A stretch of 64,000 nucleotides of DNA, taken from assembly GCA_006969385.1 (NCBI GenBank), contig CP030884.1:1178001-1242000 (forward strand). Direction: 5' to 3'. This document shows positions 7,713 through 50,203 of this stretch, in pieces; position 1 is the first letter of the stretch; each line of letters opens with the position of its first letter. Both the position numbers and the translations under genes were made by a program. This DNA is from Planctomycetaceae bacterium. Its GTDB lineage: Bacteria > Planctomycetota > Phycisphaerae > UBA1845 > UTPLA1. Under the pieces are notes generated by a model. It searched no databases. It saw only the letters and a program-made list of their open reading frames with translations, and had not been told where the DNA came from.

Positions 7713-7785
<73 letters not shown>

Positions 7786-7847
7786 GTTTATAAGTCACGC
7801 CGAACGCATAACTTAGCGTACCTGTTAAACGGATAACAGAGCGGCTC

Positions 7848-9529: not shown

Positions 9530-9919
9530 ATGTCGATTTCGACTGATGCGTCTCAGATTGACGCCAACAACATACCGGTTCATTCAGAGTCCCACGCCGC
9601 TTCCCATCCGATTCCGCTGCGGGAAGTCCCCCAGTACCTACCCCGCAGGGCGAATAAGCCGGTTTCATACAACACCGTGTGGCGATGGGCCCGTAAAGGC
9701 GTGGGCGGTGTAGTGCTGAAAACGCTCAGGGGGCCCAGCGGCCTCTACACCACCCGAGCTTGGATCGAACAATTCTTGCTTGAATACAACGAGCTCAAAC
9801 GGTTGCAGGAAACCGAGTGTGCCCCTCGCTCAAGTCTCACCACCGAGCAAAGGCGGGCCCGCGAGGTTCACCGCTCAGTCGAAAACTTGCTCTTTTCGAA
9901 GGAAGGTGAGACACGATGA
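9530..9919 (+). CDS. DUF1580-like helix-turn-helix DNA-binding protein
   Basis: Seen: the central part, IPLREVPQYLPRR...VSYNTVWRWARKG...LKTLRGPSGLYTTRAWIEQF, has the layout of excisionase/MerR-type helix-turn-helix proteins and resembles the planctomycete DUF1580 family. The start is ATG at 9530 after GGGAGA. It is the first gene of an operon and overlaps the next gene by 4 bases (ATGA). Inferred: it controls this operon or serves as the recombination directionality factor for the integrase; the position two genes from the integrase fits both. 129 aa; cytoplasmic. Confidence 0.7.
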   Translation: MSISTDASQIDANNIPVHSESHAASHPIPLREVPQYLPRRANKPVSYNTVWRWARKGVGGVVLKTLRGPSGLYTTRAWIEQFLLEYNELKRLQETECAPRSSLTTEQRRAREVHRSVENLLFSKEGETR

Positions 9920-11079: not shown

Positions 11080-11134
11080 TTCAATTGTTCGTAATGACTT
11101 ACAACACATTCGGAATGTTCGCGGAGATGATGAC

Positions 11135-12007
11135 ATGACAACAGATAACCGATTCACGGATCGTGAGGCTTTAGGCTTCAATAAATTTGAATCGCGGTAT
11201 CGCCCGTTCTGGTGGGAAGAATATTGCGGTTACGACAGCTCGCAGAGTTTGCATCGTCTTCGGAGGCTCGTATCTAAAGATGAGCTTCCACCAGTAATCG
11301 CTTTGATTGGACCGCCAGGTACCGGAAAGACTTCACTGGGTCGAACGCTGCAAGCCTGGGCGTTCTGCCAGCAACCTGTTCATCCAGATCGCGGATGTGG
11401 CACATGCAACGCTTGCCGCTCTATTCGTAGGGACCCCGCGTGCCATCGATCAAGCGAATGGCGTGTCGAGTATGACGGAGCCAACGACTCTGTAGATTAC
11501 ATTAACCGCGAAGTCGATCATGGTTGTGGCAACCTGTCCCGGGCTCTTTTTCAGACGAATGAAGAATTCGCTAGCACTCGCGGCGTCGTCGTGGTCATCG
11601 ACGAGTTCCATCGTATTCGAAACGATCAGCAGGAGAAGCTACTCAAGCGAATCGAGGACTTAGACTGCATCAATTTTGTCCTGATGACGACCCACAAGGA
11701 CAAGATTGACCCTGCTATCCTTGATCGTCTCGCACTGAACTGCTTCTACTTCAACGACCCGTCGATTGACGGCCTCAAAGAGCATCTTTGCCTGATTGCA
11801 AACCGCAACAACAAGAAACTCGAGGCCGATGGTGCCGTCCTTATCGCACAGCAGTGCAAACAGAAAATGCGAAGCTGCATCAGTGCCATGAAGGAGCTCT
11901 GCCTCACGAACTCCGAGACCATCACCAAGAGTGACGTTGAAGAATTGTTCGGTATCGTCCAAACGAATTCAGATAAGACAGGAGATATCGATGTCGCCTT
12001 CATTTAG
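11135..12007 (+). CDS. DnaX/HolB-like clamp-loader AAA+ ATPase
   Basis: Seen: Walker A GPPGTGKTS (about residue 59), a zinc-binding-type Cys cluster CGTCNACRS...C (about 88-103) in the position of the DnaX zinc module, Walker B/DEXX VVVIDEFHR (about 156), and sensor 1 LMTTHKDKIDPAILDR with the arginine-finger-like region. About 290 residues, matching a clamp-loader AAA+ core without the DnaX oligomerisation tail. The ATG at 11135 has GGAG 8 bases upstream and is preferred over ATG 11072, which overlaps the previous gene and has no such site. Known: clamp loaders open sliding clamps using ATP. Inferred: an element-borne helper for replication or for loading onto DNA ends. Confidence 0.75.
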   Translation: MTTDNRFTDREALGFNKFESRYRPFWWEEYCGYDSSQSLHRLRRLVSKDELPPVIALIGPPGTGKTSLGRTLQAWAFCQQPVHPDRGCGTCNACRSIRRDPACHRSSEWRVEYDGANDSVDYINREVDHGCGNLSRALFQTNEEFASTRGVVVVIDEFHRIRNDQQEKLLKRIEDLDCINFVLMTTHKDKIDPAILDRLALNCFYFNDPSIDGLKEHLCLIANRNNKKLEADGAVLIAQQCKQKMRSCISAMKELCLTNSETITKSDVEELFGIVQTNSDKTGDIDVAFI

Positions 12008-14785: not shown

Positions 14786-17700
14786 GTGGAACTCATTGAT
14801 AACATTAATCGTCTTTTGGGCGATGATATCAAGCAATCGGTAACACCGGGGGCGAAGATTCGGATCGCCGCCTCGTGTTTTTCGATCTATGCCTACGAAA
14901 CCTTAAAGAAGGAATTCGAAAGCCTCGATTGCTTCGATTTTATTTTCACGAACCCTACGTTCGTTCCAGACGAAGTAACGGACAGTGGCAGAAAACAACG
15001 TCGCGAATTCCACATCCCTAAGTCTAGACGAGAACGAAGTTTCTACGGTACAGAATTCGAGATTCAGTTAAAGAACAAGCTCACCCAAAAAGCGATTGCA
15101 AAGGAATGTGCTGACTGGATTAAACGAAAAGCTCGTTTTAAGTCCAATCGCACCGAAGCTCCGATGCAGCCCTTCGCGTGCATCGCAAATCCTGAAAACA
15201 ATGTCGTTTATCAACCCCTTCATGGGCTCACCGCTGTTGATCTCGGCTACCAGCAGGGTAACGCTATTTCGAATTTCGTTAATAAGTTCAGTGAAGTGCC
15301 TCACACCCAGGCATACTTAAGCCTCTTTGACCAAATCTGGAATGATAATGATAAGGTCGCTGATGTTACCGACCGGCTTTCAGAACACATAGCCGCCGTC
15401 TATCAAGAAAATTCGCCGGAGCGAATTTACTTCCATATGCTGTTCCATATTTTTAATGAGTTTCTGGAGGACCTCAATGAAGACCTTCTTCCCAATGATC
15501 TTACTGGCTACAAGAACAGTCTCGTTTGGAAAAAGCTCTATAACTTTCAGCAGGATGCCGCAACAGGAATCATTAATAAACTAGAGACGTTTAACGGATG
15601 CATCTTGGCCGACAGTGTCGGTCTTGGAAAGACATTCACGGCACTCGCCGTAATTCGCTACTACGAGCTACGGAATCGTGCAGTACTGGTCCTTTGTCCG
15701 AAGAAGCTCGCCGATAACTGGACCAACTACAATCGCAACCTTAAAACCAATATCTTCGCTCGTGATCGTTTCAACTATGACGTTCTGTGCCACACAGATT
15801 TACTCAGAACCAGCGGTGAGTCACTTGGCACACCGCTGAGTCGCGTGAATTGGGGGAATTATGATCTCGTCGTTATTGATGAGTCCCACAATTTTCGCAA
15901 CAACGATCCTTATAAGGAAAAGGAAACTCGTTACGAACGTCTGATGCGAACGGTCATTCGTGAGGGTGTCAAAACAAAAGTATTGATGCTTTCTGCGACT
16001 CCGGTCAACAACCGGTTCAATGATCTCAAGAATCAGCTCGCACTCGCCTACGAGGGTGACTCCGAAGCGTTCAGCAAACAGGTGGGCACTGAAAAGAACA
16101 TTGAGGAGGTATTCCGGCGTGCCCAAGCTGTATTTAATGACTGGTCAAAGGCCCCTGCTGAAGAACGAACCGCAGAGTCCATTCTGCAGCGTCTCGACTT
16201 CGACTTCTTTGAGTTGCTGGACCGAGTGACGATTGCCCGCTCGCGTAAGCACGTCGAGACGTTCTATGACACATCAGAAATCGGCAAGTTTCCTGAGCGT
16301 CGTAAGCCAATGTCGTTCCGGCCACCGCTCACCGATAGGGACGATGTCATGGGCTTTAATGACATCTACGGCAGCCTTTCACGCTTAAGCCTATCAATAT
16401 ATACACCACTAAACTACGTTCTACCTACTCGCCGTTCCAAATACGAGTCAATTTACGATACGGAGGTCGAGGGAGGCAAAGGTCGCCTGCGGCAGATCTA
16501 TCGAGAGCAGGGATTGCAAGCCCTGATGACCACAAATCTATTGAAGCGGCTTGAGAGTTCGGTTGAGGCATTTCGTATTACATTAACCAAGCTTAAAAAG
16601 GCTCATGAGACGATCCTTCAGCTAATTGAAGTATTCCATAAGCATGGAAAAGACGTTGAGATTGCAGGACTGTCTGGCGACCTTGCCGATTTTGACGCCG
16701 ACGACGACGATCTCCCCGACGCTGGCGAAGGCGTGATCGGAGGCAAAGTCCGTATCAAACTGTCGGACATGGATCTAACTTCATGGGAGCATCTGTTACG
16801 CGAAGACGAAAAAGAAATTGATGCTCTTCTACGGGAGATGGCAAAAGTTACTCCCAAGCACGATGCGAAACTTCAGCATCTTCAAGCTCACATACATGAA
16901 AAAATCGCATCGCCTCTCAATCCCGGCAATAAGAAAGTCCTCATCTTTACTGCTTTTGCCGATACTGCAAATTACCTTTACCGCAATTTAGCACCAATAT
17001 TAAAAAGCAGCGAGACAATAGACGTCGGCCTAGTCACTGGATCTCAACGACCGAAATCAACCATTGATAAGCGGTTTGAGTTTCAATCATTGCTGACCCT
17101 ATTCTCGCCGCAATCCAAAGAGAAGCACTCAATATTGCCCGAAGAAACCGCTGAAATCGATGTACTCATCGGCACAGATTGTATTTCCGAAGGCCAAAAC
17201 CTACAGGACTGTGACTGGGTCGTGAATTACGATATTCACTGGAATCCAGTCCGCATTCTTCAACGATTTGGGCGTATCGATCGTATCGGATCGACCAACT
17301 CAAGTATTCAACTTGTAAACTACTGGCCGGATATCACGCTTGACGAGTATATCAATTTGAAGGAACGGGTCGAAAACCGCATGGTCATCGCCGACGTTAC
17401 GGCAACTGGAGATGACAACGTTCTGACGACGGAATCGAATGACGTATCCTATCGAAAGGAGCAACTGCGACGCCTGCAAGACGAAGTCATCGACATCGAG
17501 GACCTTCGAACTGGCGTGGCCATTACCGACCTTGGTCTGAATGACTTCCGGATGGATTTGCTGAATCACATCAAAGATAACCCGGAACTCGATACGATGC
17601 CGAATGGACTGCATGCTGTGGTCCCAGCAAACTCTGAGCGGGGATTACCACCCGGGGTTATCTTCACGCTTCGTAATCGGCACCAATCCGTCAATATCAA

Positions 17701-18058
17701 TCAGCAGAATCGCCTACATCCCTTCTATTTAGTTTTCGTATCAATGGATGGTGAAGTCGTCATCAATCACACCGAAGTGAAGAAGATTCTCGATTTGGCT
17801 CGGGCCTCTTGCAGAGGCCACAACACGCCCGATTCAGCGGCCTGTCGCCTCTTTAATGAGGGAACGGACGATGGTAAGAGCATGGAAATCTACTCCGGCC
17901 TGCTCGGTGAAGCCATCCGTTCGATCATTGAGGTGAAAGAGGATAAAGACCTTGACAGCCTATTTACTGGAAAACGCACTTCTGCACTTACAAGCCAAAT
18001 AGCTGGCCTAAGTGATTTCGAGCTGATCTCCTTTATTGCAGTGCAGAATGTGAAATGA
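14786..18058 (+). CDS. SNF2-type DEAD/DEAH helicase with N-terminal PLD-like region
   Basis: Seen: an N-terminal ~150 residues in phospholipase-D style (GAKIRIAASCFSIYAYETLKKE) but without an HKD motif, so the nuclease site looks lost. The helicase core follows: Walker A ADSVGLGKTFTA (about residue 275), DEAH-box variant IDESHNF (about 364), motif III LSATPVNN, and C-terminal motifs V/VI GQNLQDCDWVVNYDIHW...QRFGRIDRIGS (about 800-837). Known: SNF2 family ATPases translocate on double-stranded DNA. First gene of a tight operon; its stop overlaps the DUF4391 gene as ATGA. The GTG start at 14786 is the first plausible one. Inferred: the DNA-sensing or remodelling motor of an extended type III restriction-like system. 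Confidence 0.85.
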   Translation: MELIDNINRLLGDDIKQSVTPGAKIRIAASCFSIYAYETLKKEFESLDCFDFIFTNPTFVPDEVTDSGRKQRREFHIPKSRRERSFYGTEFEIQLKNKLTQKAIAKECADWIKRKARFKSNRTEAPMQPFACIANPENNVVYQPLHGLTAVDLGYQQGNAISNFVNKFSEVPHTQAYLSLFDQIWNDNDKVADVTDRLSEHIAAVYQENSPERIYFHMLFHIFNEFLEDLNEDLLPNDLTGYKNSLVWKKLYNFQQDAATGIINKLETFNGCILADSVGLGKTFTALAVIRYYELRNRAVLVLCPKKLADNWTNYNRNLKTNIFARDRFNYDVLCHTDLLRTSGESLGTPLSRVNWGNYDLVVIDESHNFRNNDPYKEKETRYERLMRTVIREGVKTKVLMLSATPVNNRFNDLKNQLALAYEGDSEAFSKQVGTEKNIEEVFRRAQAVFNDWSKAPAEERTAESILQRLDFDFFELLDRVTIARSRKHVETFYDTSEIGKFPERRKPMSFRPPLTDRDDVMGFNDIYGSLSRLSLSIYTPLNYVLPTRRSKYESIYDTEVEGGKGRLRQIYREQGLQALMTTNLLKRLESSVEAFRITLTKLKKAHETILQLIEVFHKHGKDVEIAGLSGDLADFDADDDDLPDAGEGVIGGKVRIKLSDMDLTSWEHLLREDEKEIDALLREMAKVTPKHDAKLQHLQAHIHEKIASPLNPGNKKVLIFTAFADTANYLYRNLAPILKSSETIDVGLVTGSQRPKSTIDKRFEFQSLLTLFSPQSKEKHSILPEETAEIDVLIGTDCISEGQNLQDCDWVVNYDIHWNPVRILQRFGRIDRIGSTNSSIQLVNYWPDITLDEYINLKERVENRMVIADVTATGDDNVLTTESNDVSYRKEQLRRLQDEVIDIEDLRTGVAITDLGLNDFRMDLLNHIKDNPELDTMPNGLHAVVPANSERGLPPGVIFTLRNRHQSVNINQQNRLHPFYLVFVSMDGEVVINHTEVKKILDLARASCRGHNTPDSAACRLFNEGTDDGKSMEIYSGLLGEAIRSIIEVKEDKDLDSLFTGKRTSALTSQIAGLSDFELISFIAVQNVK

Positions 18059-18771
18059 CGGAGACAGCTGCAGTTAAGTCAGGTGCGACTCCTCTATTCG
18101 AGTATCCGCACTCGGCGAAATTCGGACGACTATTGCCGAAAAACAAGATCTATGTCCATGCTCGACCAAGCAATAAACAGAAGAAAATGTTCACGGAGGA
18201 GGTTGCACAAATCACATGGGCTTACAAGCTCGCCCCAGAGACGATACACCTATCTGCTCGCCCCGAAGTCCCTGAGATTCAAATTTTTCTTATCACGCTA
18301 AAGGATGAGCGGGCAACCGAATTATCCGTGGATGTGTCGCGGTGTATTGACCGAGCGATTGGATTCCCGATCATATTCGAGGTCGTTGCCGGGAACCGCG
18401 TTCAAATAATGGCCGCCTACAAGCGTCCAAGCGATTCCGACTCAAGTAAATGGGTCATTGGAGATTATCTACGGTCGGATTGGCATAATCGTGACGCTCA
18501 GCGAGCACAGCTACCGGTTGCACTTGACCTTGCTGCCCTCTACCGACACTTGCTTACTCCGTTGATTGCTATTCCAGCACAAAATGAAGAGTCATTGAAA
18601 GACCACCATGACCGTTTGGAACAGATTCGTCGCCTTGAGAAAGAGCGAGTAAAGCTTGAAAAGAAGCTTTCCCGGGAGAAACAGTTCAATCGGAAGATTG
18701 ACATCAACGCAAGAATTCGTGAGCTTCAGGAACAAATCGATAGTCTTTTGAAGGCAAAATCATCTTCCTAG
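18055..18771 (+). CDS. DUF4391 domain protein
   Basis: Seen: an N-terminal alpha/beta domain (LFEYPHSAKFGRLLPKNKIY...ITWAYKLAPETIHLSARPEVPEIQIFLI) of DUF4391 type, and a C-terminal charged coiled coil of about 50 residues (LEQIRRLEKERVKLEKKL). Known: DUF4391 proteins are found next to helicases and type III-like methyltransferases; no activity is assigned that I know of. Starts at 18055 in a 4-base overlap with the helicase gene. Inferred: an adaptor joining the helicase to the Mod-Res complex through the coiled coil. 238 aa, cytoplasmic. Confidence 0.8.
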   Translation: MTETAAVKSGATPLFEYPHSAKFGRLLPKNKIYVHARPSNKQKKMFTEEVAQITWAYKLAPETIHLSARPEVPEIQIFLITLKDERATELSVDVSRCIDRAIGFPIIFEVVAGNRVQIMAAYKRPSDSDSSKWVIGDYLRSDWHNRDAQRAQLPVALDLAALYRHLLTPLIAIPAQNEESLKDHHDRLEQIRRLEKERVKLEKKLSREKQFNRKIDINARIRELQEQIDSLLKAKSSS

Positions 18772-18789: not shown

Positions 18790-20763
18790 ATGACAAAACT
18801 CAAAATGCACACCCCCGACCTTGTTACCGAGAATATCGAGTGGGTTGCCGCTCGGTTTCCGGGGTGTATCACCGAGTCTCGAAACAAAGATGGAGAAATT
18901 ATACGAGCGGTCGATTTCGATTTACTGAGACAGGAACTTTCGTCGAACGTTGTCGACAGCCCAAGTGAGCGATATCACCTAGATTGGCCAGGTAAACGTG
19001 AGGCAGTGCTCGCTGCCAATGCACCGATCGCAAAGACTCTTCGCCCGTACCGAGAAGAAAGCTCCGAATTCGACACCACAAGGAATATTTTTATTGAAGG
19101 TGATAATCTAGAAACTCTAAGGCTGCTACAGGAGGCCTATTTAAACGAAATCAAAATGATCTATATCGATCCGCCGTATAACACGGGCAAGAATCGACTT
19201 TACGCAGACAATTTCGCCGAGAGGGTTGATGCATATCTAGTGCGTTCTCAACAATCAGGTTCGAACGGCATGCACTTGGTTGCAAACAGTGAGAGCAATG
19301 GTCGTTACCATTCCGATTGGCTTTCGATGATGCTCCCACGGATTCGTACTTCATACAGTCTTCTTGCTGCTGATGGGATAATGTTTATTTCCATTGGAGA
19401 CCATGAAGTTCATAACGTCCGGCATTTGTGTGACCAGGTTTTTGGACGAAGAAACTTTCTTGCACAATTCGTTTGGCGAACTGATGGAAATTTCGACAAT
19501 CAGGCCAAAGTCAAATCTTGCCATGAATACATTATTGCATACGCCCGCGACGTCGATGCCTTCCCGCACCCCCCTGTCATTGACCCTGGTACTCCGAAAG
19601 GCAGTAAGCTTTTTAAGGAGGAGATTCGAAATACAATTGTCAAAAATGGGCCTCGAAACCCAGTAAGTTCAGTACAACTCCCAATTGGATTTCCTGCTTC
19701 GTTCGAGCATGGCCAAATTCGAGCGAGAGATGATGAGTGGCCCCATTTTGATTCAGACGCTGAAGTTTCGGGCGGCAAACTAGCGAAGCCCGTAACGGTT
19801 TCAAGCGGTTGGAGTTCAAAAGAGCTGCTAAATGACTTTCTTCGGAATGAATGTCTAGCGATAAGGGACAGTAAGGGCCAAGAAACCATCTTTGAGCTGA
19901 CAAGAACTGGAGCCATCGAGGCAGTGAAGAAGCGGTCAGAATCTCAAAGCCATGTAATCTCAGTCATTGGTGGAATGGGAGGTTCTCAAAAAGCCGCTGC
20001 AGAACTTGATGAGCTTGGAATCGTCTTTGACGACTATCCAAAACCAACACAGTTGATTCGATATTTTATGCAAATGCAGACCGGTGATGATTATATAGTC
20101 CTCGATTTCTTTGCAGGATCAGGAACGACATTCGATGCGATGTTGCAGATGAACGCGGCAGACGGTGGCAGACGACAGTCAATAATATGTCAATTAGCGG
20201 AGCCAGTTTCCCCGGAAGAGCCGTTACAGCGTCGAGCTGTAGAATTCTGTGATTCGATTAATCGGCCTCGAAATATAGCGGAAATCTGCAAGGAAAGGAT
20301 GCGTCGTTGTAGCCAAAAAGTTAAAGACGCCGCTGCACTTACCAGTGCTGATCTCGACACTGGCTTCCGCGTCCTCAAGGTTGACTCCTCCAATATGAAA
20401 GACGTTTACTATCGTCCCGACGATGCAGACCGCGAGCTTCTCGGCGGACTTGTCGACAACATCAAGGACGATCGCACCGACGAGGACCTTCTCTTTCAAG
20501 TTCTGCTCGACTGGGGTGTTGATCTATCACTCCCGATCAAGAATGAAAAGATCAAAGACAAGACCGTTTTCTTCGTGGATGAGAACGCACTGGCCGCCTG
20601 CTTTGAATCTGGCATTGACGAGCCGTTCGTGAAGGAACTGGCACAACGTAAGCCGTTACGCGTCGTATTCCGCGATGCCGGGTACGCCACCGACGACACC
20701 AAGATCAACGTCGAGCAAATCTTCAAGCAGCTTTCACCCGGCACTGAAGTCAAAACGTTGTAG
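18790..20763 (+). CDS. mod: type III restriction-modification DNA methyltransferase (Mod)
   Basis: Known reaction: transfers methyl from S-adenosylmethionine to adenine N6 in the recognition site. Seen: catalytic DPPY at about residue 127 ([12 protein letters not shown]) placed before the cofactor motif FFAGSGTT (about 439-445), the beta-class order normal for type III Mod. The region between them should contain the target recognition domain. 657 aa is typical. It starts 18 bases after DUF4391 and ends 17 bases before Res. It should both modify the island host and direct the Res subunit. Confidence 0.92.
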
Positions 20764-20780
20764 GTAAGGAGTCCTTCATC

Positions 20781-23700
20781 GTGGCAATGACGCTCAAATT
20801 TAAGAAGCAGGCATATCAGACTGACGCGGTGGAAGCTGTTGCTGATTGCTTTGCCGGACAACCGAAGGCTGACCCTCTTAATTACCGAGTCGATTCGACG
20901 CTCCGCGAAAATGAAAAAGACAACGTATTAGGCTTTGCGGATTATGTGCTTGGCTTCAAAAATAGCCCCTTGGACCATGGGCTGCCGATTCTAGAGAACA
21001 TCAAGGAGGTGCAGCGGCGTCAAAATCTCCCCATGTCAGAGGAGCTAGTCGGTACCACTCTCGGCAAGGGGAGTACGGCAAGAGACGCCGTAGTCAATCT
21101 TGATGTTGAGATGGAGACCGGTACCGGTAAGACCTATTGCTACATTAAATCGATGTTCGAACTCAACCGCCGCTACGGCTGGAGCAAGTTCATTGTCGTT
21201 GTACCCAGCATCGCCATTCGGGAAGGTGTTTATAAGTCCTTTGAAATCACCGCCGAACACTTTCTAGAAGAATATCACAAGCGAGCTCGCTTCTTTATTT
21301 ACAACTCAAAACGCTTGCATGAATTGGAGAGTTATTCGTCCGATTCTGGCATCAACGTCATGATTATCAATGTGCAGGCTTTTAATGCCCGAGGCAAGGA
21401 CGCCCGTCGTATCTATGAGGAGTTAGATGACTTTCAATCGCGACGGCCCATTGATGTCATCAAAGCGAATAACCCGATACTCATTCTCGATGAACCACAG
21501 AAAATGGAAGGCAAGAAGACGATGGACTCGCTCGCCGAGTTTAATCCGCTCATGATTCTTCGCTATTCTGCCACCCATAAGACCCAATACAACAAAATCT
21601 ATCGCCTCGACGCTTTAGACGCATACAACCAAAAACTCGTGAAGAAGATTGCAGTACGAGGGATTTCGACAAAGGGCCTCAGCGGCACCAATGGATTTCT
21701 CTATGTCGAGTCAATCCAGATTTCCGCATCCAAGCCACCAGTGGCTCGCGTGGAGATGGAGATCAAACAAAAAAGCGGTATTAAGCGGGTCATCAAAAAG
21801 TTAGGCCGGAATGACAACCTTTACGATGTGTCCGGTGGTCTCGATCAGTATAAGGGCTTTGTTGTCGCCGACATCGATGCACGCACCGATATCATTAGCT
21901 TTACCAACGGGGAGGAATTGCAAGCTGGAGAGGCAACCGGCGATATCAATGAAACAACGCTCCGTCGCATTCAAATCCGCGAGGCCATACGAGCCCACCT
22001 CGAACGAGAACAGCAGTTATTTGAGCAAGGCGTAAAGGTACTGACCCTTTTCTTCATTGATGAAGTCGCGAAGTATCGGCAATATGACGACGATGGCGAG
22101 AAGCAGGGTGAATATGCCATCATGTTTGAAGAAGAGTACAGTCGTCAGGTTGCGGACAGCATGAAACTCTTCGAGGATGCATATCTCCGTTACCTAAAGC
22201 AAATCGATCCCAGCAGCACGCATAATGGATATTTTTCTATCGATAAGAAGAATCGACTTGCCAATCCTAAGACGGTCAAACGTGGGGAATTTGCGGGGCA
22301 GAGTGAAGACGTGGATGCATACGATCTGATCCTTCGCGACAAAGAGAGGCTACTCTCACTGGAGGAGCCGACCCGCTTCATATTCTCGCACTCAGCATTG
22401 CGAGAAGGCTGGGATAATCCGAATGTTTTTGTCATCTGCACCCTAAAACACAGTGACAGCACGGTTTCGAGGCGACAAGAAGTTGGGCGGGGTATGCGGC
22501 TTTCAGTTTTTTCCGACGGACCTCGAAAAGGCGAACGAAGTGACGATCCAGCCACAGTGCACGACGTTAATGTTTTGACCGTCGTAGCAAATGAAAGCTA
22601 TCGCGACTTCGTAACCGGGTTGCAGAAAGATATCAGTGAGTCGCTATCTGATCGGCCGCGACTTGCAAATGTCAAATTCTTCACCGGCAAAGTACTTAAG
22701 ACCGACACTGACGAGCTGGTCGTAACGCCCCAGTTGGCGAAGAAGATCTATCGATATCTCGTGAAGAATGACTTCACCGATGACAACGATCGCATTACCA
22801 AGGCTTACCACGACGCCAAGTCCGAAGGGAGCCTGGCTGAGCTACCCGACGACCTTCAACCGTACGCTGAGCAAGTCTTCAAACTTGTGGACAGCGTATT
22901 TAGCGACGCTCAGATTCCGCTCCCAGAAGACAGTCGCAAGCCCAAAGTCAATCCTTTAAACGAGGCCAATTTCCGGAAGAAGGAATTTCAGGAGCTATGG
23001 AGTAAAATTAACCAGAAAGCAGCTTATACAGTCCATTTTGATTCAGTAGAACTCATCACCAAGTGCATCAAGGTGATTGATCGAGAGCTGAATGTAGCTC
23101 GGCTTCAGTATTTCGTAGAACGCGGGGAGCAACACGCGGAGACAACTATAGATGAGGTCAAAAAAGGTTCGGCATTCGAAGCACCACGGACATCGCGTGA
23201 GCAACACGATGACTCGATACGCTCGGCGGTAAGGTATGACCTTATTGGAAACCTCGCTGATAATACTCAACTCACACGTCGAACGACCGCCGCGATATTG
23301 ACCGGCATATCGCCAGCCACCTTTGCATTATACCGAATAAACCCAGAGGACTTCATTAGCCAGGCCAGTCGCCTCATCAATGAGCAAAAAGCGACTGTCA
23401 TTGTCGAACATTTGACCTACAGCCCAATCGATGATCGACATGACATCGATATCTTCACGAAGAATAATACCAAGGCTGATTTGTCGGAGGCCTACAAGGC
23501 AGCTCGCCATGTCTATGAGTATGTGTTAACTGATTCGAAGAACGAAAAAAAATTCGTGGAGCTCTTGGACAAGGGTGATGAAGTGGTCGTCTATGCCAAA
23601 CTTCCTCGCGGCTTCTCGATACCCACACCTGTCGGAAACTATAACCCAGACTGGGCGATCGCTTTCCAAGATAACAAGGTCAAGCATGTATTCTTTGTCG

Positions 23701-23855
23701 CCGAGACGAAAGGTTCGCTTTCGAGCATGGAACTGCGGGAAATAGAGCAGCGGAAGATCGAATGTGCTCGTAAGTTCTTTTCGAAAATCACCTCAGACAA
23801 AGTGAAATACGAGGTCGTCGATACTTTCGAAAAGCTGATGGAGGTTGTGGCGTAA
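20781..23855 (+). CDS. res: type III restriction endonuclease subunit (Res)
   Basis: Known: ATP-dependent SF2 translocase/nuclease that acts with Mod on unmethylated sites. Seen: Walker A ETGTGKTY (about residue 112), DEAD-box variant LDEPQKM (about 237), motif [12 protein letters not shown]-terminal helicase motifs including [14 protein letters not shown] and [11 protein letters not shown], and a C-terminal PD-(D/E)XK nuclease with Pro-Asp about residue 957 and Glu-Thr-Lys about 975-977. All catalytic parts are present. The GTG start at 20781 follows AAGGAG. 1024 aa is typical. Last gene of the four-gene operon. Confidence 0.92.
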
Positions 23856-27977: not shown

Positions 27978-27996
27978 CTGACCATTTTAGCGTCAG
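27978..27996 (+). promoter_or_regulatory. operator-like dyad, copy 1
   Basis: CTGAC-N9-GTCAG, 40 bases before the PGN_0703-type nuclease gene. The 17-base block GACCAYTTTAGYGTCAG recurs at 29973-29989 near the WYL regulator gene with only two differences. Likely bound by that WYL protein. Confidence 0.5.
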
Positions 27997-28035
27997 CCCC
28001 TACATCTAGCCTCATCGATATTTCCGGAGGGTATG

Positions 28036-28911
28036 ATGACAGGGTCAGACTACATCATCGAAAAGCAGCGGCTTTGGGCACAGCGAGCAGGAATATGCCT
28101 TCAAGGTAGCAAAGGCAACCGGGGGCGAGCTCTCTATACGAAATCCCTCAACGCCAATTTGCTCCAACCACCTTCGGCAACCGCTCGGAAAGAGTTTCAG
28201 CAAGGTGACGGCAGCGAAATTCACTCCAAGACCAATGCTCCGGCGAAGATGCAGGCTCTTCATTCTTCATCTGCAATCGCTGCCAATGTCTTTGGGTATT
28301 GGAAAGACCACATCGATCAAGCCTGGATCGCCGCTAAGGCATTACGAATTCCGTCCAAGGGAATCAGCTCGATCTGCTTCGAGCAAAAACTTCCTATTCT
28401 TCGCTCCAGCGGGAAACGCAAAGTCAATTTCCATCCCAACATTGATGTATTAATCGAATATGAAGGCTCCACCAAGCTGCGAGCGGTAGGAGTCGAATGC
28501 AAACTGACCGAACCGTTTGGTCACCGCAACACGCGGTATTTCGCTGAAGCATATCTTGAGACGCCGCAAATCTGGGAAGCACTACCAAACCTTCGCAAGC
28601 TGGCGACCCGCTTGAACGACCCGAAGCGACAATTCCCGGTCTTGGATGCTCCGCAACTCATCAAACACATTCTTGGGCTTACTCATCGCTACGGCCTGAA
28701 TCGATTCCGACTCGTCTGCCTTTGGTACGACGCCCCCGGAGCCGTCGCTGTTCAACACAATGACGACCTACTCGAATTTACCGAAGTCGCGAGCGAGGAT
28801 GGTGTTCGTCTCCACACCATTACCTATCAAGAAATGATCACCGGGCTGAATAGATACGCCCGACCTGCTGATCAAGCCTACGTTCACTACTTGAGTAGTC
28901 GTTACTTCTGA
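28036..28911 (+). CDS. PGN_0703-type putative restriction endonuclease
   Basis: Seen: an N-terminal segment common to this family (RLWAQRAGICLQGSKGNRGR and MQALHSSSAIAANVFGYW) and a PD-(D/E)XK-type core with Asp137 (IDVLIEYEG) and Glu154-Cys-Lys156 (VGVECKL). All three catalytic positions are present. Known: PGN_0703 family proteins are annotated as putative restriction endonucleases; no activity is established that I know of. ATG 28036 is preferred over 28033 for spacing from GGAGG. First gene of a three-gene group with another nuclease-like protein and a WYL regulator. 291 aa. Confidence 0.75.
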   Translation: MTGSDYIIEKQRLWAQRAGICLQGSKGNRGRALYTKSLNANLLQPPSATARKEFQQGDGSEIHSKTNAPAKMQALHSSSAIAANVFGYWKDHIDQAWIAAKALRIPSKGISSICFEQKLPILRSSGKRKVNFHPNIDVLIEYEGSTKLRAVGVECKLTEPFGHRNTRYFAEAYLETPQIWEALPNLRKLATRLNDPKRQFPVLDAPQLIKHILGLTHRYGLNRFRLVCLWYDAPGAVAVQHNDDLLEFTEVASEDGVRLHTITYQEMITGLNRYARPADQAYVHYLSSRYF

Positions 28912-28966
28912 GCAGAGACCAATATGTTCCGTGTGGGGTATCTATTAAGTGATGGAGCGTAGGTCT

Positions 28967-29974
28967 ATGAAAAATGAGAATCCGCTACCGTGGGGACTAC
29001 CCGATCTCGATCCGCAGCCCCAATGGAGTGACAACAAGGACCGAATCAAGTGCTTTATTCGCGATTGCGATCACTACCTGATACCGCCCACCCGTAAACT
29101 CAATTCGGGAGAGGCGTGTCCGGTTCATCAAATCTTCTGTCATCGTTCCAAGACTTACCGTTACACCACACCAGCCCTCAACATCATTGCAAGTCGTCAC
29201 TACTACACTGAAAAGATTGATGGCCACGCATACAAGTTTGAATCACACCGGCTGGGCATGGAACGTTCAGAAGATGCTCTCTCTTGGAATGTCTTCAAGT
29301 CGCTCCAGAACGCGGGACGACTTGCATCGCTGGTCAACATGATGGTTGGAGAGAATCACGCCGACGAACCTATTCTGTTTCTGTGGGGCATCAATGTCGG
29401 TTCAGCTGGTGCGGATATTTGGCATTTGCTCGAAGATGCTCGGGAACGATTTGAAAGCCGCCTACCGGTTCGCCGCCCGAAAACGGAGCCGGACATCTCG
29501 TTGTGGCTACCGGGTGAATATCTGATTCACATTGAAGCAAAATTCACGAGCGGGAATGGTATCTACCAACGCGGGCCACGCCGCTCGGTTCAGGACCTCA
29601 CGTTCGATGAATTGCTCAACATCTATTGGGACGAGTCGACTCGCATCCTTAATCGATCCAACGCCCTTGAGGCGGGCCGGGTACATTACCAGCTATGGCG
29701 TAACACACTTTTTGCCGAATGGATGGCAGAGCGTGACGACCCAACTACCCGAGCTTATCACATCAATCTTGTCCGGGCGGGATCGGAAGAAGCGGCGGCG
29801 GTCGAATTTCAGCAACTCATCCAGCCCGCTTTTGCTGATCGGTTCCACCAAATCACATGGGAGCAGATCTATAACTTTGCGTCGCAACGACGCGATGAAC
29901 TGAATCATCTCTGCACTTACTTTGAGCAAAAAACAGAGCAATTAAAGCCCGCCTTCCGCATCAACCGCCTGTGA
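28967..29974 (+). CDS. zinc-finger/PD-(D/E)XK nuclease-like protein
   Basis: Family not recognised by name. Seen: N-terminal Cys/His cluster (KCFIRDCDHY...EACPVHQIFCH), then a nuclease-fold core with Glu174-Pro-Asp176 (EPDISLWLPG) and Glu190-Ala-Lys192 (IHIEAKFTSG). Inferred: a Mg-dependent nuclease reading DNA through its zinc module. The ATG at 28967 is chosen for GGAG upstream; ATG 28952 and GTG 28949 are in frame. It follows the PGN_0703-type gene by 55 bases and runs up to the WYL gene, so the two nucleases probably act together. Confidence 0.65.
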   Translation: MKNENPLPWGLPDLDPQPQWSDNKDRIKCFIRDCDHYLIPPTRKLNSGEACPVHQIFCHRSKTYRYTTPALNIIASRHYYTEKIDGHAYKFESHRLGMERSEDALSWNVFKSLQNAGRLASLVNMMVGENHADEPILFLWGINVGSAGADIWHLLEDARERFESRLPVRRPKTEPDISLWLPGEYLIHIEAKFTSGNGIYQRGPRRSVQDLTFDELLNIYWDESTRILNRSNALEAGRVHYQLWRNTLFAEWMAERDDPTTRAYHINLVRAGSEEAAAVEFQQLIQPAFADRFHQITWEQIYNFASQRRDELNHLCTYFEQKTEQLKPAFRINRL

Positions 29975-31011
29975 CCACTTTAGTGTCAGGGGGTGTACCT
30001 GAGGGTGCAAGTTTGCACGCGAGGGTACATCAGGCAGTGCGTGGCAAACGGCTCAATCGATTACTGCAGCTCATTGCTCTACTGCGAGGACCGACCTCGT
30101 GGAACGCCCGACGCTTGGCCGAACACTTTCAGACCAGTCGTCGCAACGTATATCGCGACTTAGCTGTCTTGGAACTCGCTGGGGTTCCCTATTACTTCGA
30201 CCCCGATTTTGGTGACGGCGGTGGCTATCGCATTCGGCCCGAGTGGTGGTTCCCATCCGTCGGATTAACGCAGCAGGAATGTTTAGACCTTGCCGTTCTC
30301 GTACGGATCGCCGAAACCGGCAACATTCCCCTGCTCGACCAAGTTTCAGAAGCCCGGGATAAACTACTCGGCACCCTTCCGGCTAAGCAGCAAGACATTA
30401 TTCGCACTGCATCCGAGCTCTTCGACATCTTCCGGATCGGGCTCGCGGAACACGGCCACTCCCGCTCGATCATGCTGTGCCTACAACAGGCTCTCATTCA
30501 GCGAATTCAGATTAAAGGCAGTTACCGATCACACGGTAAGAAACGAGCCGCGTCAGTAAGCCTTCAGCCACGAAGGATATTTCTTTGCGGCAACGCATGG
30601 TATCTGGCTGCCCATTGCAACAAAGCCAAAGACACGAAGCTCTATCGCATTGCCCGATTCACTCAGGCCGAACTCGTTGACCGGAGAGCGACGGTGGATC
30701 ATCGCTTCTCGTTACGCGAGTATCTCGGCAATGCCTGGACTGTTCACCGTGGCGACCGTGATTGGTATGTGGAAATCATCTTCACCGCAGAAGCGGCTCC
30801 CTTGGTTTCCGAAACATGTTGGCATCACACGCAGGAACTTGAGCTGCAGTCCGACGGCTCGCTCATATTTCGGGCGACCGTTTCCGGCTTGGAGGAGATT
30901 CAGTATTGGGTATTGGGATGGGGCCCAAGGGCTAGAGTGAAAAAGCCCAACGAACTAAGAGCTCAAGTGCAATCACTTTGTGCTTCTACGATGTCGAGCT
31001 ATCACGATTGA
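29971..31011 (+). CDS. HTH-WYL domain transcriptional regulator
   Basis: Seen: an N-terminal winged helix (RLNRLLQLIALLRGPTSWNARRLAEHFQTSRRNVYRDLAVLE), a central linker, and a WYL domain with Trp210-Tyr211-Leu212 (NAWYLAAH) and downstream RIARF, counted from GTG 29971. Known: HTH-WYL proteins such as BrxR and CapW repress phage-defence operons and respond to nucleic-acid ligands. The longest frame starts at GTG 29971 (4-base overlap with the nuclease gene). The family normally begins just before RLNRLL, so GTG 30037 is probably the real start, leaving the 36-bp dyad as an operator. Inferred: regulates the two nuclease genes. Confidence 0.85.
   Translation: MTTLVSGGVPEGASLHARVHQAVRGKRLNRLLQLIALLRGPTSWNARRLAEHFQTSRRNVYRDLAVLELAGVPYYFDPDFGDGGGYRIRPEWWFPSVGLTQQECLDLAVLVRIAETGNIPLLDQVSEARDKLLGTLPAKQQDIIRTASELFDIFRIGLAEHGHSRSIMLCLQQALIQRIQIKGSYRSHGKKRAASVSLQPRRIFLCGNAWYLAAHCNKAKDTKLYRIARFTQAELVDRRATVDHRFSLREYLGNAWTVHRGDRDWYVEIIFTAEAAPLVSETCWHHTQELELQSDGSLIFRATVSGLEEIQYWVLGWGPRARVKKPNELRAQVQSLCASTMSSYHD
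29972..29988 (+). promoter_or_regulatory. operator-like dyad, copy 2
   Basis: TGAC-N9-GTCA, part of the 17-base block shared with 27980-27996 (two differences). It lies at the end of the nuclease gene and just before the 36-bp dyad and the likely true start of the WYL gene. Confidence 0.5.
29994..30029 (+). promoter_or_regulatory. 36-bp nested dyad before the likely WYL start
   Basis: TGTACC-5-GTGCAA-GT-TTGCAC-5-GGTACA: two nested perfect 6-bp inverted repeats with equal 5-base spacers. Symmetry of this kind is typical for a dimeric repressor. It ends 7 bases before the in-frame GTG at 30037. Confidence 0.6.
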
Positions 31012-31758: not shown

Positions 31759-34700
31759 ATGACGACCGACACATTCGAACAAGCTCCCCCTCCGGCGATA
31801 ACCATCGATCTGAATCTAGATCGAAACATCAACTACGCCTTACAGCAGAACGATGTTCCCATCATTCGCCAGCTCCGAATCACAAACCCAAGCGATACAG
31901 CAGTCGAAGACCTGCAGTTGATTATTCGAAGTGAGCCCGAGTTCTTTCCGCCATGCCATCAACACCTTTCGAAGATTGCACCGAATGGCACGTGGACCAA
32001 ATCGCCCATCGATCTACGGCCCGACGGTGCTTTCCTGCGGCGGATCACGGAACGGATTCGCGGCGATATTGTTGTTGAGTTGGCAAACGGCGAATCGTCA
32101 CTCGCACAGATTACCGAGCCGATTGAGTTCCTCGCCTTCGACGAATGGAGTGGACTGGACCGTTCCATCCCAGAGATCGTTGCCGCCTTCGTACTGCCGA
32201 ACGATCCAACCATTGAAGAGATTCTCAAAGAAGCGTCTCTATGGCTGAAGCAACACACCGGTCATTCGTCAATCGACGGCTACCAGTCAAAGAGCCCCAG
32301 AAGAGTTGGGCAGATCGCTCAGGCCATCTATCAAGTCGTGCAGAGCCGAGGGATTTCCTATTGCAATCCTCCGGCCAGCTTTGAAGCGAACGGCCAGAAG
32401 GTCCGCCTGCCCGACCGCATCATGCTGACCAAACTTGGTACCTGCCTTGACCTAACCCTGTTGCTAGCCGCTTGCCTGGAGCAAGCGGGCTTGCACCCAC
32501 TCGTGGTGATGACGCGGGGACATGCGTTCGTTGGCGTATGGCTGATCGACGAGTGTTTTTCAGATTGTGCGTCGGATGATGTCAGTCACCTTCGCAAGCG
32601 GCAATCACTAAACGAGCTACTGGTTTTCGAGTCGACATTGGTCACCGCCCCACCACCCAATGACTTCAATACCGCTTGCTCCATCGGCAAGAGCCATCTG
32701 GAAAAAGATGATGATTTCGTCGCAGTCATTGACATTCACCGCTGCCGCAAATCTCAGATTCGCCCGCTTCCGTCCCAGCGAATCGGTGGCGGCTCAGGCA
32801 CGACTGTGGACACCACTGAAGATGCCGGAGAGATCACCATCTTTGATTTGGCCGATCCAACCGAACGGGAGGCCGAAAAGGAACCACCGGCCACCCGAGT
32901 CGACCGCTGGAAACGCAAACTGCTTGATCTGTCGCTGCATAATAAAGTGATCAACTTCAAGCCCAACCAGAAGAAAGCCGTGCCGATCATCTGCCCTGAT
33001 CTTGGGCAAATGGAAGACTCACTGGCCGACGGACTTGAATTCGTTGTTCGCAGCAAACCCGATGATCTTCAGAATGAGGGTCGCCGCGACCAAGGACTAC
33101 ACTTGGCCCGCACCGGCGAAGATGGCACCGAAGCGTTCTTGCGAGACGAAATTGCCAGCCGCCGACTTTACGCCGACCTTACCGAAGAGGAACTCAATAA
33201 ACGCCTCACCGAAATCTATCGACACGCCCGCACCGCCAAGGAAGAAGGTGGTGCCAGTGCATTGTATCTAGGCGTGGGATTTCTGAAGTGGTTTGAATCC
33301 AACCACGCCGATACACCTCGACTCGCCCCGATCATCCTGGTGCCGCTCGATATTCAACGGAAATCCATCCACGAGGGATATCACATCGTCCAAAGTGATG
33401 AGGAGACGCGGGTCAACGTCACATTGCTCGAACTACTCAAGAAAGACCACGGCATCACCATTGATGGTCTCGATCCGGTACCCACCGACGACCATGGTGT
33501 CGATGTACCGTACATCCTCAACACGGTCACTCGGGCCATCAAAACCACGCCCCGTTGGGAAGTGTTGGAGTCGGCCAATATCGGCTTCTTCTCCTTCACC
33601 AAGTTCTTAATGTGGCTGGACCTGGAAAAACGCTCGGGTGATCTCGAACGCAACGATGTGGTTCGTCACCTAATCCACACCAGTTCGGAATCCTTTAGTG
33701 ACGAAGGCACATTCCCCGAAGAAGAAAAACTCGACGAAGAGTATCCGCCAGACCAGATTCTTTGCCCGATGCCTGCCGACTCGTCGCAGTTAAGTGCCGT
33801 ACTCGCAGGAGCACAGGGGAAAAATTTCGTCCTGTTTGGACCGCCCGGCACCGGTAAATCGCAAACCATCACCAACCTCATCGCTCAGTGCTTGGGGATC
33901 GGTAAGAGCGTATTGTTCGTTTCGGAAAAGATGGCAGCACTGGGCGTGGTGCACGATCGCTTGGAAAAATCCGGGCTCGGCCCGTTCTGTATGGAAGTGC
34001 ATTCCGCCAAATCCAGTAAACGACACATCATCGACCAATTAGGAGCCGCTTCCGATCATCGCGGTAGTCGAAGCTCGGAAGAGTGGGGCCGAGAAGCTGT
34101 TCGTCTTGCTCGCTTGCGGAATGATCTCAATGACTACACAACGGCCCTGCACCAACGCAACAGCTTCGGTGAATCAGCATTCATCGTCACGTCAAATTTG
34201 ATCGGGCTGCGATCACATCCACTGATCAATCTATCGCTCCCCAATATTGGCGAAACAAGTCGAGATCAATTGGACCGATGGCGAGACTTGTTGGCTCGCA
34301 TGAAAACCGCCGGTCTTGAATGTGGCGTGATTGCCGGAAACGCATGGAGCGGTGCGAATATCTCCACCTGGTCGGCACCGGCACAACAGCACATCGCAGA
34401 TTCGATTCGTCAACTTCACGAGTCAATTGGTCGAATGATCGAGCTCGCGAAGCAGTTGGGGCCCGTCTTCGGACTGGGCAAAGACTGGGCCTATGGGCAC
34501 CTAACCTTCATCGACAAATTGTTGCAGTTCTTCGTCAAACCCGGCGAAGCCCCATCATCATTATTGATCAGTCCCAATTGGGAGAAGGTCTCATCCTATG
34601 TGGGTGGCCTGATCAAGAAGGGCCGGGAACGCGACCAACAAGAAGCCGAACTATTTGGCACTTACGAAGAGACGGTACTTGCCCTCGATCTTGATGCCCT

Positions 34701-37680
34701 TTTGTTAGATTTTAATACGGCCAACGCCAAATGGTTCCTACCGAGATTCTTCGGTCTCGGACGCGTGCGACGCGTCTTGGCCGGTACATGCAAGGCCGGT
34801 GAGAAACCGGAAAAAGACAAACTCCTCTCTCACATTACGCAAGCTCAAGGGGTACGAGACCTGCGAGCATGGTTTACCGAGCATCATGATCGAGGCCGGG
34901 AATTGCTTGGCTCTCATTGGCAGGACGGTCGAGCCAAGTGGGATACCGTCGATGAAATGGTGAACTGGTCGGACGAGTTTCGGGGGCTCGCGTCCAAGGC
35001 TGCCGGATCGAAAGACGAAAACGCCGTTGCATTTCGGAAGCACTGGGCCAAATTGCTGGACGAGCATCGCGAGCAACTTCAGCCGGGCGGCAAGCTCCGA
35101 GGATTGATCGATCAATTCGCCAACGAGCTTGGTCAGACACAGACGCTTAAATCGCAGTTGGAACAACAACTGGTAATGGTCGACGATACCTTGCTTTGGG
35201 GTTCGCCGACCCAGCAATTGCGATTAACGTCGCTGAAAGATCGACTGGAACGATGGCAACAGCATCTCAATGGCCTACAAGCTTGGTGTTATTGGCGACA
35301 GGTCCGCAGAGAAGCCGTCGATGCCGGTTTACAGCCGGTTGTAGGTGCCTTTGAAGCAGGGTCTGTCTCCAACGATTCACTTCGCGATGCATTCGATCGC
35401 AGCTTTTATGAAGAATGGCTTACATGGGCCAATCAACAACATCACGTATTGGGCAAATTCTACAGTCCTGAGCACCAACGCAAGATTCAGGAGTACCAAC
35501 AATGCGACCAAGCGTATATGCACTTGACCCCAGCTGAATTGCAGGCTCGCATTGCAACCAAAAAGCCAACCACCACTGACGGAGCCAGCGAAAAATCGGA
35601 AGCGGGCATTCTCAATCGTCAACGACGATTGCGACGAGGTCACATGCCGGTTCGCAAGCTCTTTCAGGAAATCCCCAATCTCTTACCTCGATTAAAGCCC
35701 TGCTTATTGATGAGTCCGATCTCTGTGGCTCAGTATTTGGATGCCTCACACCCACCCTTTGATGTCGTGGTGTTTGACGAAGCATCCCAGATTCCGGTGT
35801 GGGATGCGGTTGGAGCTATCGCACGCGGAGCCAGTGTCATTGTCGTCGGAGATCCGAAGCAATTGCCGCCCACGAATTTCTTTATGCGGAGCGATGATTC
35901 CGAATTCGAGGATGAAGACATCGTCAAAGATATGGAGAGTATTCTTGATGAATGCCTTTCGGCGAGTATTCCTGAACGGTCACTGAAATGGCACTACCGC
36001 TCTCGCCATGAGAGCTTAATCACCTTCAGTAATCATCACTATTACGACAATAGCCTACTGACGTTCCCATCACCCGCCGTCAATCACGGTGTGTCACTGC
36101 GTTACCTGCCCGACGCGGTGTATGACAAAGGAAAGAGTCGTACCAACCGGGTCGAAGCCGACGCGGTCGTCGATGAAATCATCACCCGACTCAAAGACCC
36201 GGACCGCCAGCACATGAGCATCGGTGTTGTTACCTTTAGCCAAGCCCAACAAACACTGATCGAAGACCTCCTCGACGCTGAAATCCGCAAACATCCTGAG
36301 ATTGAGGTCTATTTCACCGACGAGGTAGATGAACCGGTCTTCGTGAAAAATCTGGAGAATGTGCAGGGCGATCAACGCGATGTCATTCTGTTTTCCGTCT
36401 GCTACGGTCCCGATCAAACTGGTCGCGTGTCGATGAACTTTGGCCCGCTCAACCGCGATGGCGGTGAACGTCGCCTGAATGTCGCCGTCACCCGAGCCTG
36501 CAATGAGATCGTGGTATTCAGCTCGATCAGGGCAGAGCATATTGACTTGGCCCGTACACGGTCTGTTGGAGTAACAGACTTTAAGTGCTTCTTGGATTAC
36601 GCCGATCGCGGACCAGCCGCAATATCCCAAGCCATTGCAATGGGAAGCTCGTCCGACTTCGATTCTCCGTTCGAACGAGACGTCTGCAATCACCTTCGCG
36701 ACCATGGCTACCAGGTTGATACACAAGTGGGCTGCTCAGGGTATCGCATTGATCTCGCTGTTCGCGATCCCGACAACCCAGGCCGGTACGTCATCGGAAT
36801 TGAATGTGACGGAGCCGCCTATCATCGAGCGAAGACGGCCCGTGACCGAGATCGATTGCGACAAGAAGTACTCGAAGGCTTAGGCTGGACCCTCACCCGC
36901 GTCTGGTCCACGGACTGGTGGAACAACCCACAGGCCTGTATCGAAAAACTCAAGAAAGCCATCGACGATGCCATTCGTTCAGCATCCGGCCAACCAGGAA
37001 TCATGGTGGGTTCCAACTCCAGCCTGGTCGAACCGAGCGTTTCTGATCAATCGACTGATCCCGATCAACAGGAACAACATGCCGAGGAAACGGCACCAGA
37101 TTCGGAAGTGGGCCCGACCCTGCCCGAGTACGACGCCTTTAAGATTGCAGGCAAACAAAGACCATCAGACGAGTTCTATGACAACGCTACCAACCGAAAG
37201 CTCCGGGAACTTGTCGAGAAGATCGTTCATCACGAATGGCCGGTCCATGTTGACGTCGTTACCCGACGCGTCGTTGGTCATTGGGGAATGAAACGGGTCG
37301 GCACTGCGATTCGCAACCGGATGGATGCCATCATTAGCCTCGCTAGTGTGGCGACGGTTGAGCATGACGAACGATTATTCCTATGGCCCCAAGACCGGCA
37401 GACACACGATTTGGAGGTGTTCCGTATTCAGGGTGCTCAAGCAGATCATCAACGGGATATTGACCACATTCCACCGGAAGAAATAGTCCTTGCGATTGTT
37501 CACGTCCTTCGCAACCAGATCAGCTTGCCCCGAGCGGAACTGATAAAGGAAACCGCCCAGCTCCTCGGGTTCGGTCGTGTGGGTCGCAGTATTCGCGATG
37601 CCATCGGCTACGCACTCACCCTCGCCGAACAGAGAGACGACGTAAGAGTCGAAGGAGATCAGGCCTCTTATTCGGGGTAG
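31759..37680 (+). CDS. transglutaminase-like/DUF4011/SF1 helicase/Vsr-like nuclease giant protein
   Basis: Seen, in order: a beta-rich N-terminus; a transglutaminase-like region with Cys229 (LGTCLDLTLLLAACLEQAG) and His255 (GHAFVGVWL); DUF4011 (KLLDLSLHNKVINFKP, about residue 390); SF1 helicase Walker A GPPGTGKSQT (about 694) and Walker B VVFDEASQIPVWDAV (about 1340); motif VI-type RRLNVAVTRA; an MTES_1575/Vsr-type nuclease (SPFERDVCNHL...YRIDLAV...IGIECDG, about 1636-1722); and a DUF3320-like C-terminus. Known: DUF4011-helicase-Vsr proteins give phage resistance in E. coli surveys (I recall the name Hhe, unverified). The extra transglutaminase-like part stands out. 1973 aa, cytoplasmic. Inferred: single-protein defence effector, perhaps with the next genes. 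Confidence 0.82.
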   Translation: MTTDTFEQAPPPAITIDLNLDRNINYALQQNDVPIIRQLRITNPSDTAVEDLQLIIRSEPEFFPPCHQHLSKIAPNGTWTKSPIDLRPDGAFLRRITERIRGDIVVELANGESSLAQITEPIEFLAFDEWSGLDRSIPEIVAAFVLPNDPTIEEILKEASLWLKQHTGHSSIDGYQSKSPRRVGQIAQAIYQVVQSRGISYCNPPASFEANGQKVRLPDRIMLTKLGTCLDLTLLLAACLEQAGLHPLVVMTRGHAFVGVWLIDECFSDCASDDVSHLRKRQSLNELLVFESTLVTAPPPNDFNTACSIGKSHLEKDDDFVAVIDIHRCRKSQIRPLPSQRIGGGSGTTVDTTEDAGEITIFDLADPTEREAEKEPPATRVDRWKRKLLDLSLHNKVINFKPNQKKAVPIICPDLGQMEDSLADGLEFVVRSKPDDLQNEGRRDQGLHLARTGEDGTEAFLRDEIASRRLYADLTEEELNKRLTEIYRHARTAKEEGGASALYLGVGFLKWFESNHADTPRLAPIILVPLDIQRKSIHEGYHIVQSDEETRVNVTLLELLKKDHGITIDGLDPVPTDDHGVDVPYILNTVTRAIKTTPRWEVLESANIGFFSFTKFLMWLDLEKRSGDLERNDVVRHLIHTSSESFSDEGTFPEEEKLDEEYPPDQILCPMPADSSQLSAVLAGAQGKNFVLFGPPGTGKSQTITNLIAQCLGIGKSVLFVSEKMAALGVVHDRLEKSGLGPFCMEVHSAKSSKRHIIDQLGAASDHRGSRSSEEWGREAVRLARLRNDLNDYTTALHQRNSFGESAFIVTSNLIGLRSHPLINLSLPNIGETSRDQLDRWRDLLARMKTAGLECGVIAGNAWSGANISTWSAPAQQHIADSIRQLHESIGRMIELAKQLGPVFGLGKDWAYGHLTFIDKLLQFFVKPGEAPSSLLISPNWEKVSSYVGGLIKKGRERDQQEAELFGTYEETVLALDLDALLLDFNTANAKWFLPRFFGLGRVRRVLAGTCKAGEKPEKDKLLSHITQAQGVRDLRAWFTEHHDRGRELLGSHWQDGRAKWDTVDEMVNWSDEFRGLASKAAGSKDENAVAFRKHWAKLLDEHREQLQPGGKLRGLIDQFANELGQTQTLKSQLEQQLVMVDDTLLWGSPTQQLRLTSLKDRLERWQQHLNGLQAWCYWRQVRREAVDAGLQPVVGAFEAGSVSNDSLRDAFDRSFYEEWLTWANQQHHVLGKFYSPEHQRKIQEYQQCDQAYMHLTPAELQARIATKKPTTTDGASEKSEAGILNRQRRLRRGHMPVRKLFQEIPNLLPRLKPCLLMSPISVAQYLDASHPPFDVVVFDEASQIPVWDAVGAIARGASVIVVGDPKQLPPTNFFMRSDDSEFEDEDIVKDMESILDECLSASIPERSLKWHYRSRHESLITFSNHHYYDNSLLTFPSPAVNHGVSLRYLPDAVYDKGKSRTNRVEADAVVDEIITRLKDPDRQHMSIGVVTFSQAQQTLIEDLLDAEIRKHPEIEVYFTDEVDEPVFVKNLENVQGDQRDVILFSVCYGPDQTGRVSMNFGPLNRDGGERRLNVAVTRACNEIVVFSSIRAEHIDLARTRSVGVTDFKCFLDYADRGPAAISQAIAMGSSSDFDSPFERDVCNHLRDHGYQVDTQVGCSGYRIDLAVRDPDNPGRYVIGIECDGAAYHRAKTARDRDRLRQEVLEGLGWTLTRVWSTDWWNNPQACIEKLKKAIDDAIRSASGQPGIMVGSNSSLVEPSVSDQSTDPDQQEQHAEETAPDSEVGPTLPEYDAFKIAGKQRPSDEFYDNATNRKLRELVEKIVHHEWPVHVDVVTRRVVGHWGMKRVGTAIRNRMDAIISLASVATVEHDERLFLWPQDRQTHDLEVFRIQGAQADHQRDIDHIPPEEIVLAIVHVLRNQISLPRAELIKETAQLLGFGRVGRSIRDAIGYALTLAEQRDDVRVEGDQASYSG

Positions 37681-49899: not shown

Positions 49900-49941
49900 A
49901 TGGCATGCAAGAGGTCGAGAGTTCGAATCTCTTCGGCTCCA
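49900..49941 (+). repeat. attR: right attachment core
   Basis: Perfect 42-bp copy of the tRNA-Ala 3' half (7744-7785). The 5' half of the tRNA is absent, so this is not a second tRNA gene. Confidence 0.92.
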
Positions 49942-50203
49942 ATTATGACGCTCGTTGTCACTCGGTGACGGCGAGCGTTTTCTTTTGTCGCTAGCACGAC
50001 TTACGTTCGTTTGCGATTCACCTTTTATAGCGATTGGATTTCTCAACCAATGCCGCCCGGTTCGACGTTTCCATTATTTGCCGCGTTCAGTCAATCGCTC
50101 GACTCGTGATGAAACTGGCTTGCCTGTTCCTTCTTCCGTAACGCCGCCCATGATTACCGTTGCCGCCAGAGCACCCTGTCGTCATTCTCGGTAATTTTGG
50201 CTT

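Follow-up and report, generated by a model that had tools for sequence, protein, structure and literature searches.

This locus raises two questions: at which codon the gene of its WYL regulator begins, and which DNA element would serve as the operator of that gene. The window, meaning the whole stretch of 64,000 nucleotides that was analyzed, contains one shared open frame with two possible starts, GTG 29971 and GTG 30037. Read from the latter, the gene (30037..31011, plus strand) encodes a protein of 324 aa with an N-terminal HTH, a WYL, and a WCX domain, as in HTH-WYL-WCX regulators; the Pfam scores in bits, with cut-offs in parentheses, are 28.1 (25) for HTH_11, 44.2 (21.8) for WYL, and 57.8 (23.9) for WCX. 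A sample comprising 294 genomes from the phylum and 397 from the class yielded two close orthologs: L003 in genome G220 (66% identity), which is also present as WGMA01000043.1, a Phycisphaera MAG, and L037 in genome G369 (61%). Targeted searches in the orders of these two genomes returned no further close orthologs, and phages, plasmids, viral contigs, and GTDB contigs held no close WYL relatives at useful identity. Genome G369 also carries a truncated second WYL copy (L065, G369:C60:3435-3896; residues 169-322, 60% identity), apparently broken within other sequence. An AlphaFold model made from two sequences had a mean pLDDT of 46.6, and its HTH alone was usable.

Comparison of the orthologs supports GTG 30037 as the start of the WYL gene. 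In L003, a TAG closes the frame 54 nt upstream of the GTG that corresponds to 30037; a TAA does so at the same place in L037. Both stops fall inside the conserved block described below, and from the stop to the GTG there is no ATG, GTG, or TTG. A sequence-only reading of this DNA had suspected that the longer frame was mis-set, and this arrangement supports it. The same reading had taken 29971-30036 for a non-conserved N-terminus, in agreement with the homolog alignment, wherein residue conservation among the close orthologs begins exactly at V-R-G-K-R and none precedes it. It had also called 30037 the usual start of the WYL family; most distant WYL homologs examined do have their start codon at the equivalent residue or 1-2 residues before it. 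In the short form, predicted helix 1 starts with residue 2. Block and GTG are 65 nt apart here but 66 nt apart in both orthologs, so the frame from 29971 is not preserved.

The candidate operator of the WYL gene is a conserved cis-element, TGACCACTTTAGTGTCAGGGGG (29972..29993, plus strand), recognized by a three-locus alignment and an 18-mer search. This block, TGACCACTTTARTGTCAGGGGG, lies directly 5' of a nested dyad and is identical at 22 of 22 positions in the three orthologous loci if R is allowed at one position; its consensus is TGACCACTTTA(G/A)TGTCAGGGGG. The flanking DNA is otherwise unalignable, and the WYL proteins of the three loci are 61-66% identical. In none of the three loci is the DNA from block to GTG well conserved; upstream of the block, a diverged nuclease gene is shared with G220, and nothing with G369. 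The block is non-coding in G220 and G369. At the present locus, the block overlaps the stop codon of the upstream gene with its first bases, and the first two of these overlap the spurious GTG 29971 (29971..29973, plus strand), which can be annotated as a start, shares bases with the same stop codon, and is probably unused. At the core of the block lies the pseudo-palindrome TGAC-N9-GTCA, and two of four sites extend it to CTGAC-N9-GTCAG.

These four sites are all the occurrences of the 18-mer TGACCAYTTTARYGTCAG in the 397 genomes of the class, three at the WYL orthologs and one at the nuclease gene 28033, a count that is partly built in, since the Y/R positions were chosen from the four sites themselves. 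A reversed-pattern control gave 0 occurrences in the same 397 genomes. The absence of the site from the 394 genomes that lack a WYL ortholog counts as independent evidence. Distant WYL homologs (30-40% identity) showed nothing like the block above chance, and where viral contigs matched the 18-mer (L063, L083-L086), the match lay within coding sequence or beside unrelated genes. The recognition helix is near-identical in the three proteins (TSRRNVYRD, TSRRNIYRD, and TSKRNIYRD; TS[RK]RN[IV]YRD), so their operator should be conserved too. The block is conserved, whereas neither the inner nor the outer arms of the dyad keep their sequence across the three-locus alignment. The dyad had earlier been read as an autoregulatory operator; that idea gains from the conserved candidate site nearby, but the element would be 29972-29993 instead.

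Scanning the window with the block revealed a second copy, TGACCATTTTAGCGTCAG (27979..27996, plus strand). It lies in a 97-bp gap, with a minus-strand gene on one side and the REase-ARP gene 28033 on the other, and is 37 bp 5' of the latter. It is the proposed operator of a nuclease operon. Allowing up to two mismatches, the entire 5.48-Mb genome matches the block nowhere but at these two sites, and the chance of such a match to the WYL site in that 97-bp gap is, by arithmetic, about 1e-5. The proposed head of the operon is a REase-ARP / PDDEXK_13 nuclease-like gene (28033..28911, plus strand; HPNIDVLI...VECK; PF22558 5e-16, PF20796 4.7e-07), followed by a second REase-ARP nuclease-like gene (28949..29974, plus strand; EPDISL...IEAK; PF22558 3.7e-11). 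With the WYL gene they make up a tight same-strand run (28033 - 28949 - 30037), and the three probably form one operon headed by 28033. The second nuclease gene also adjoins the WYL ortholog in G220 (51% identity), and nuclease-WYL adjacency is thus seen in each of the two genomes carrying the close nuclease. No nuclease gene neighbors the WYL gene of G369, and a second site is absent at the nuclease gene of G220; the regulon part of the proposal therefore rests on one genome. Distant nuclease homologs in G313, G501, and G513 had no WYL neighbor or site on the stretches examined.

Judging from sequence comparison, it is likely that the CTGAC-N9-GTCAG sites are the operator of a WYL regulator that begins at GTG 30037 and controls itself and the two-nuclease operon. 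A homodimeric HTH-WYL-WCX regulator would recognize the pseudo-palindrome [C/G]TGACCAYTTTARYGTCAG, with half-sites TGAC and GTCA and a 9-bp spacer. Binding at 29972-29993, in the leader or promoter of the WYL gene, would give autoregulation, and binding at 27979-27996, in the promoter of the adjacent REase-ARP operon, would give control of the nucleases. Nuclease expression may then be tied to a ligand sensed by the WYL domain. By analogy with DriD, PafBC, and SiwR, this ligand could be single-stranded DNA; if the protein is DriD-like, it would be an activator responding to ssDNA. Repression is slightly favored over activation, because the TTTARY core of the site resembles a -10 box and because a promoter 3' of the site would have scant room ahead of the Shine-Dalgarno sequence of 28033 (GGAGG).

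The nested dyad is present exactly as it had been described, at 29994..30029, between the conserved block and the start codon. Its order is TGTACC (29994-29999), TGAGG, GTGCAA (30005-30010), a central GT (30011-30012), TTGCAC (30013-30018), GCGAG, and GGTACA (30024-30029), and the arms pair at 12 of 12 positions. A whole-genome scan for the 36-mer with free spacers found one copy in 5.48 Mb. If any two perfect arms of length 6 or more that share a center count as a nested dyad, a loose definition, the window holds two, whereas Markov-1 random sequence matched for dinucleotides averages 0.2 per 64 kb. The dyad is unusual, yet not unique in the window, and is not strong evidence alone. There is a substantial chance, somewhat below even, that it is a leader-RNA hairpin serving translational control or insulation independently of the operator. 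The stretch separating block and GTG varies in sequence from locus to locus, and a stem is predicted just 5' of the GTG in each of the three, so the position is shared while the sequence has changed; the stem ends read GTAC...GGGTA(C/T), and the right arm is constantly 8 nt ahead of the GTG. The fold z-scores relative to dinucleotide shuffles are -5.7 here, -0.4 in G220, and -2.8 in G369. Against this, only three sequences are available, G+C-rich leaders fold easily, an Rfam search gave no match, and the G220 score is not significant. The dyad may fit an RNA leader hairpin somewhat better than a protein operator. It is probably not the operator, and most likely an mRNA leader hairpin or incidental.

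An improbable alternative to the preferred reading, with the WYL protein acting at the 22-bp block, is that the block serves as a core promoter or marks where a mobile element ends. Its core, TTTA(A/G)T, is like a -10 box, and a transposase-like gene lies upstream in G369. However, the nuclease site aside, there is one copy per genome, the occurrence of the block tracks the WYL ortholog exactly, and 22 invariant bases are more than a promoter needs. A transposon end or a common promoter was rejected on the single copies per genome. A consensus promoter scan of the plus strand found no sigma-70-like promoter near either site, a point against the preferred reading. Slightly less probable again is the dyad as the WYL operator: it adjoins the corrected start upstream, is rare by chance, and has arms that are weakly echoed by the stem ends of the orthologs, but the arms are not conserved despite the near-identical recognition helix, the adjacent 22-bp block is perfectly conserved, and the genome holds no second copy of the dyad. 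A genuine start at 29971, with translation coupled to that of the upstream nuclease gene by the 4-nt GTGA overlap with its TGA in a frame that stays open, is very unlikely, since neither ortholog has the overlap or the frame, the codon overlaps the conserved site, and homologs begin at the 30037 position.

The WYL and nuclease genes probably lie in an island of ~42 kb integrated at a tRNA-Ala gene. The tRNA-Ala gene (7713-7785) is followed by a tyrosine integrase gene (7902-9116), and the 3' part of the tRNA gene recurs as a 45-bp direct repeat (7744-7788 and 49900-49944, 98% identity); these repeats would be the att sites. Several PD-(D/E)XK proteins are also encoded on the island. The region further contains a Snf2-like helicase gene (14786-18058), type III restriction-modification genes (18790-23855), and a small gene between them (18055-18771). 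A 1973-aa DUF4011 / MTES_1575 helicase-nuclease (31759-37680), a very strong PADLOC PDC-S37 match, begins at a start of its own some 750 bp beyond the WYL gene. Ahead of a DnaX-like clamp-loader ATPase (11072-12007) lies a protein showing weak DNA-binding similarity of the LexA type (9916-11079), and a DnaX-like homolog is found on the G220 island too. Inside a large minus-strand gene (46361-49114) lies a 300-bp direct repeat, 99% identical, with its copies 684 bp apart (47730-48713). The related set in G220 comprises a DUF932-like protein, the second nuclease (51%), the WYL regulator, and homologs of 37785 and 38273. Tentatively, and with the odds rather against it, the WYL regulator, its 19-bp operator, and the pair of REase-ARP PD-(D/E)XK nucleases may make up an unreported, mobile, self-contained module of tRNA-integrated Phycisphaerae islands. 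If so, the WYL ligand, which could be ssDNA, would switch the nucleases, making them an inducible defense or an island-maintenance device.

Few WYL regulators have a defined operator and defined target genes, and to our knowledge none has been characterized in planctomycetes. This study corrects the start codon of one such gene and moves its predicted operator to a specific, directly testable site. The proposed link between a WYL regulator and REase-ARP nucleases is the first in the material searched.

Among solved structures, the best match by sequence is PafBC (6sj9, E 1.2e-07). Further matches are 7tzv, 7u02, and 8tp8 (E about 1e-06; 1.5e-6 for 8tp8), which we take to be DriD, the 8tp8 entry being named only 'DeoR-family transcriptional regulator'. 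No chain named BrxR or CapW was among the phmmer matches to solved structures at E<=0.05, where several are named only 'WYL domain-containing protein'. PafBC, although the closest by sequence, differs in being a two-protein mycobacterial complex, which does not bind DNA without RNA polymerase (PMC11804915). BrxR/CapW resemble it in setting: a WYL regulator in a defense-rich island, here with the type III restriction-modification genes at 18790-23855 and the PDC-S37-like helicase at 31759, and candidate operators at its own and a target promoter. BrxR(Efer) has two operator boxes, R-BOX1/2, one of them at its own gene (PMC9122601). The BrxR box, an 11-bp inverted repeat with a 5-bp spacer, differs from the site here, and the targets of BrxR/CapW are BREX/CBASS as opposed to two nucleases. 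DriD of Caulobacter shares the HTH-WYL-WCX architecture, GAC/GTC half-sites, and a nuclease gene among its targets; its site is ATACGAC(N7)GTCGTAT, and the nuclease gene is bapE (PMC12340889). However, DriD is a shown ssDNA-dependent activator, and its longer arms ATACGAC/GTCGTAT are 7 bp apart, whereas CTGAC/GTCAG here are separated by 9 bp; the site is thus GAC-N9-GTC and not the DriD-like GAC-N7-GTC. SiwR of Mycobacterium likewise has an imperfect palindrome ahead of its target operon, 19 bp long (PMC10693628), and differs as an activator of a dinB-like operon. By analogy, the system most likely works like the WYL autoregulators BrxR, SiwR, and DriD; it would thus belong to a known class, in which the operator predicted here is unusually clean and specific.
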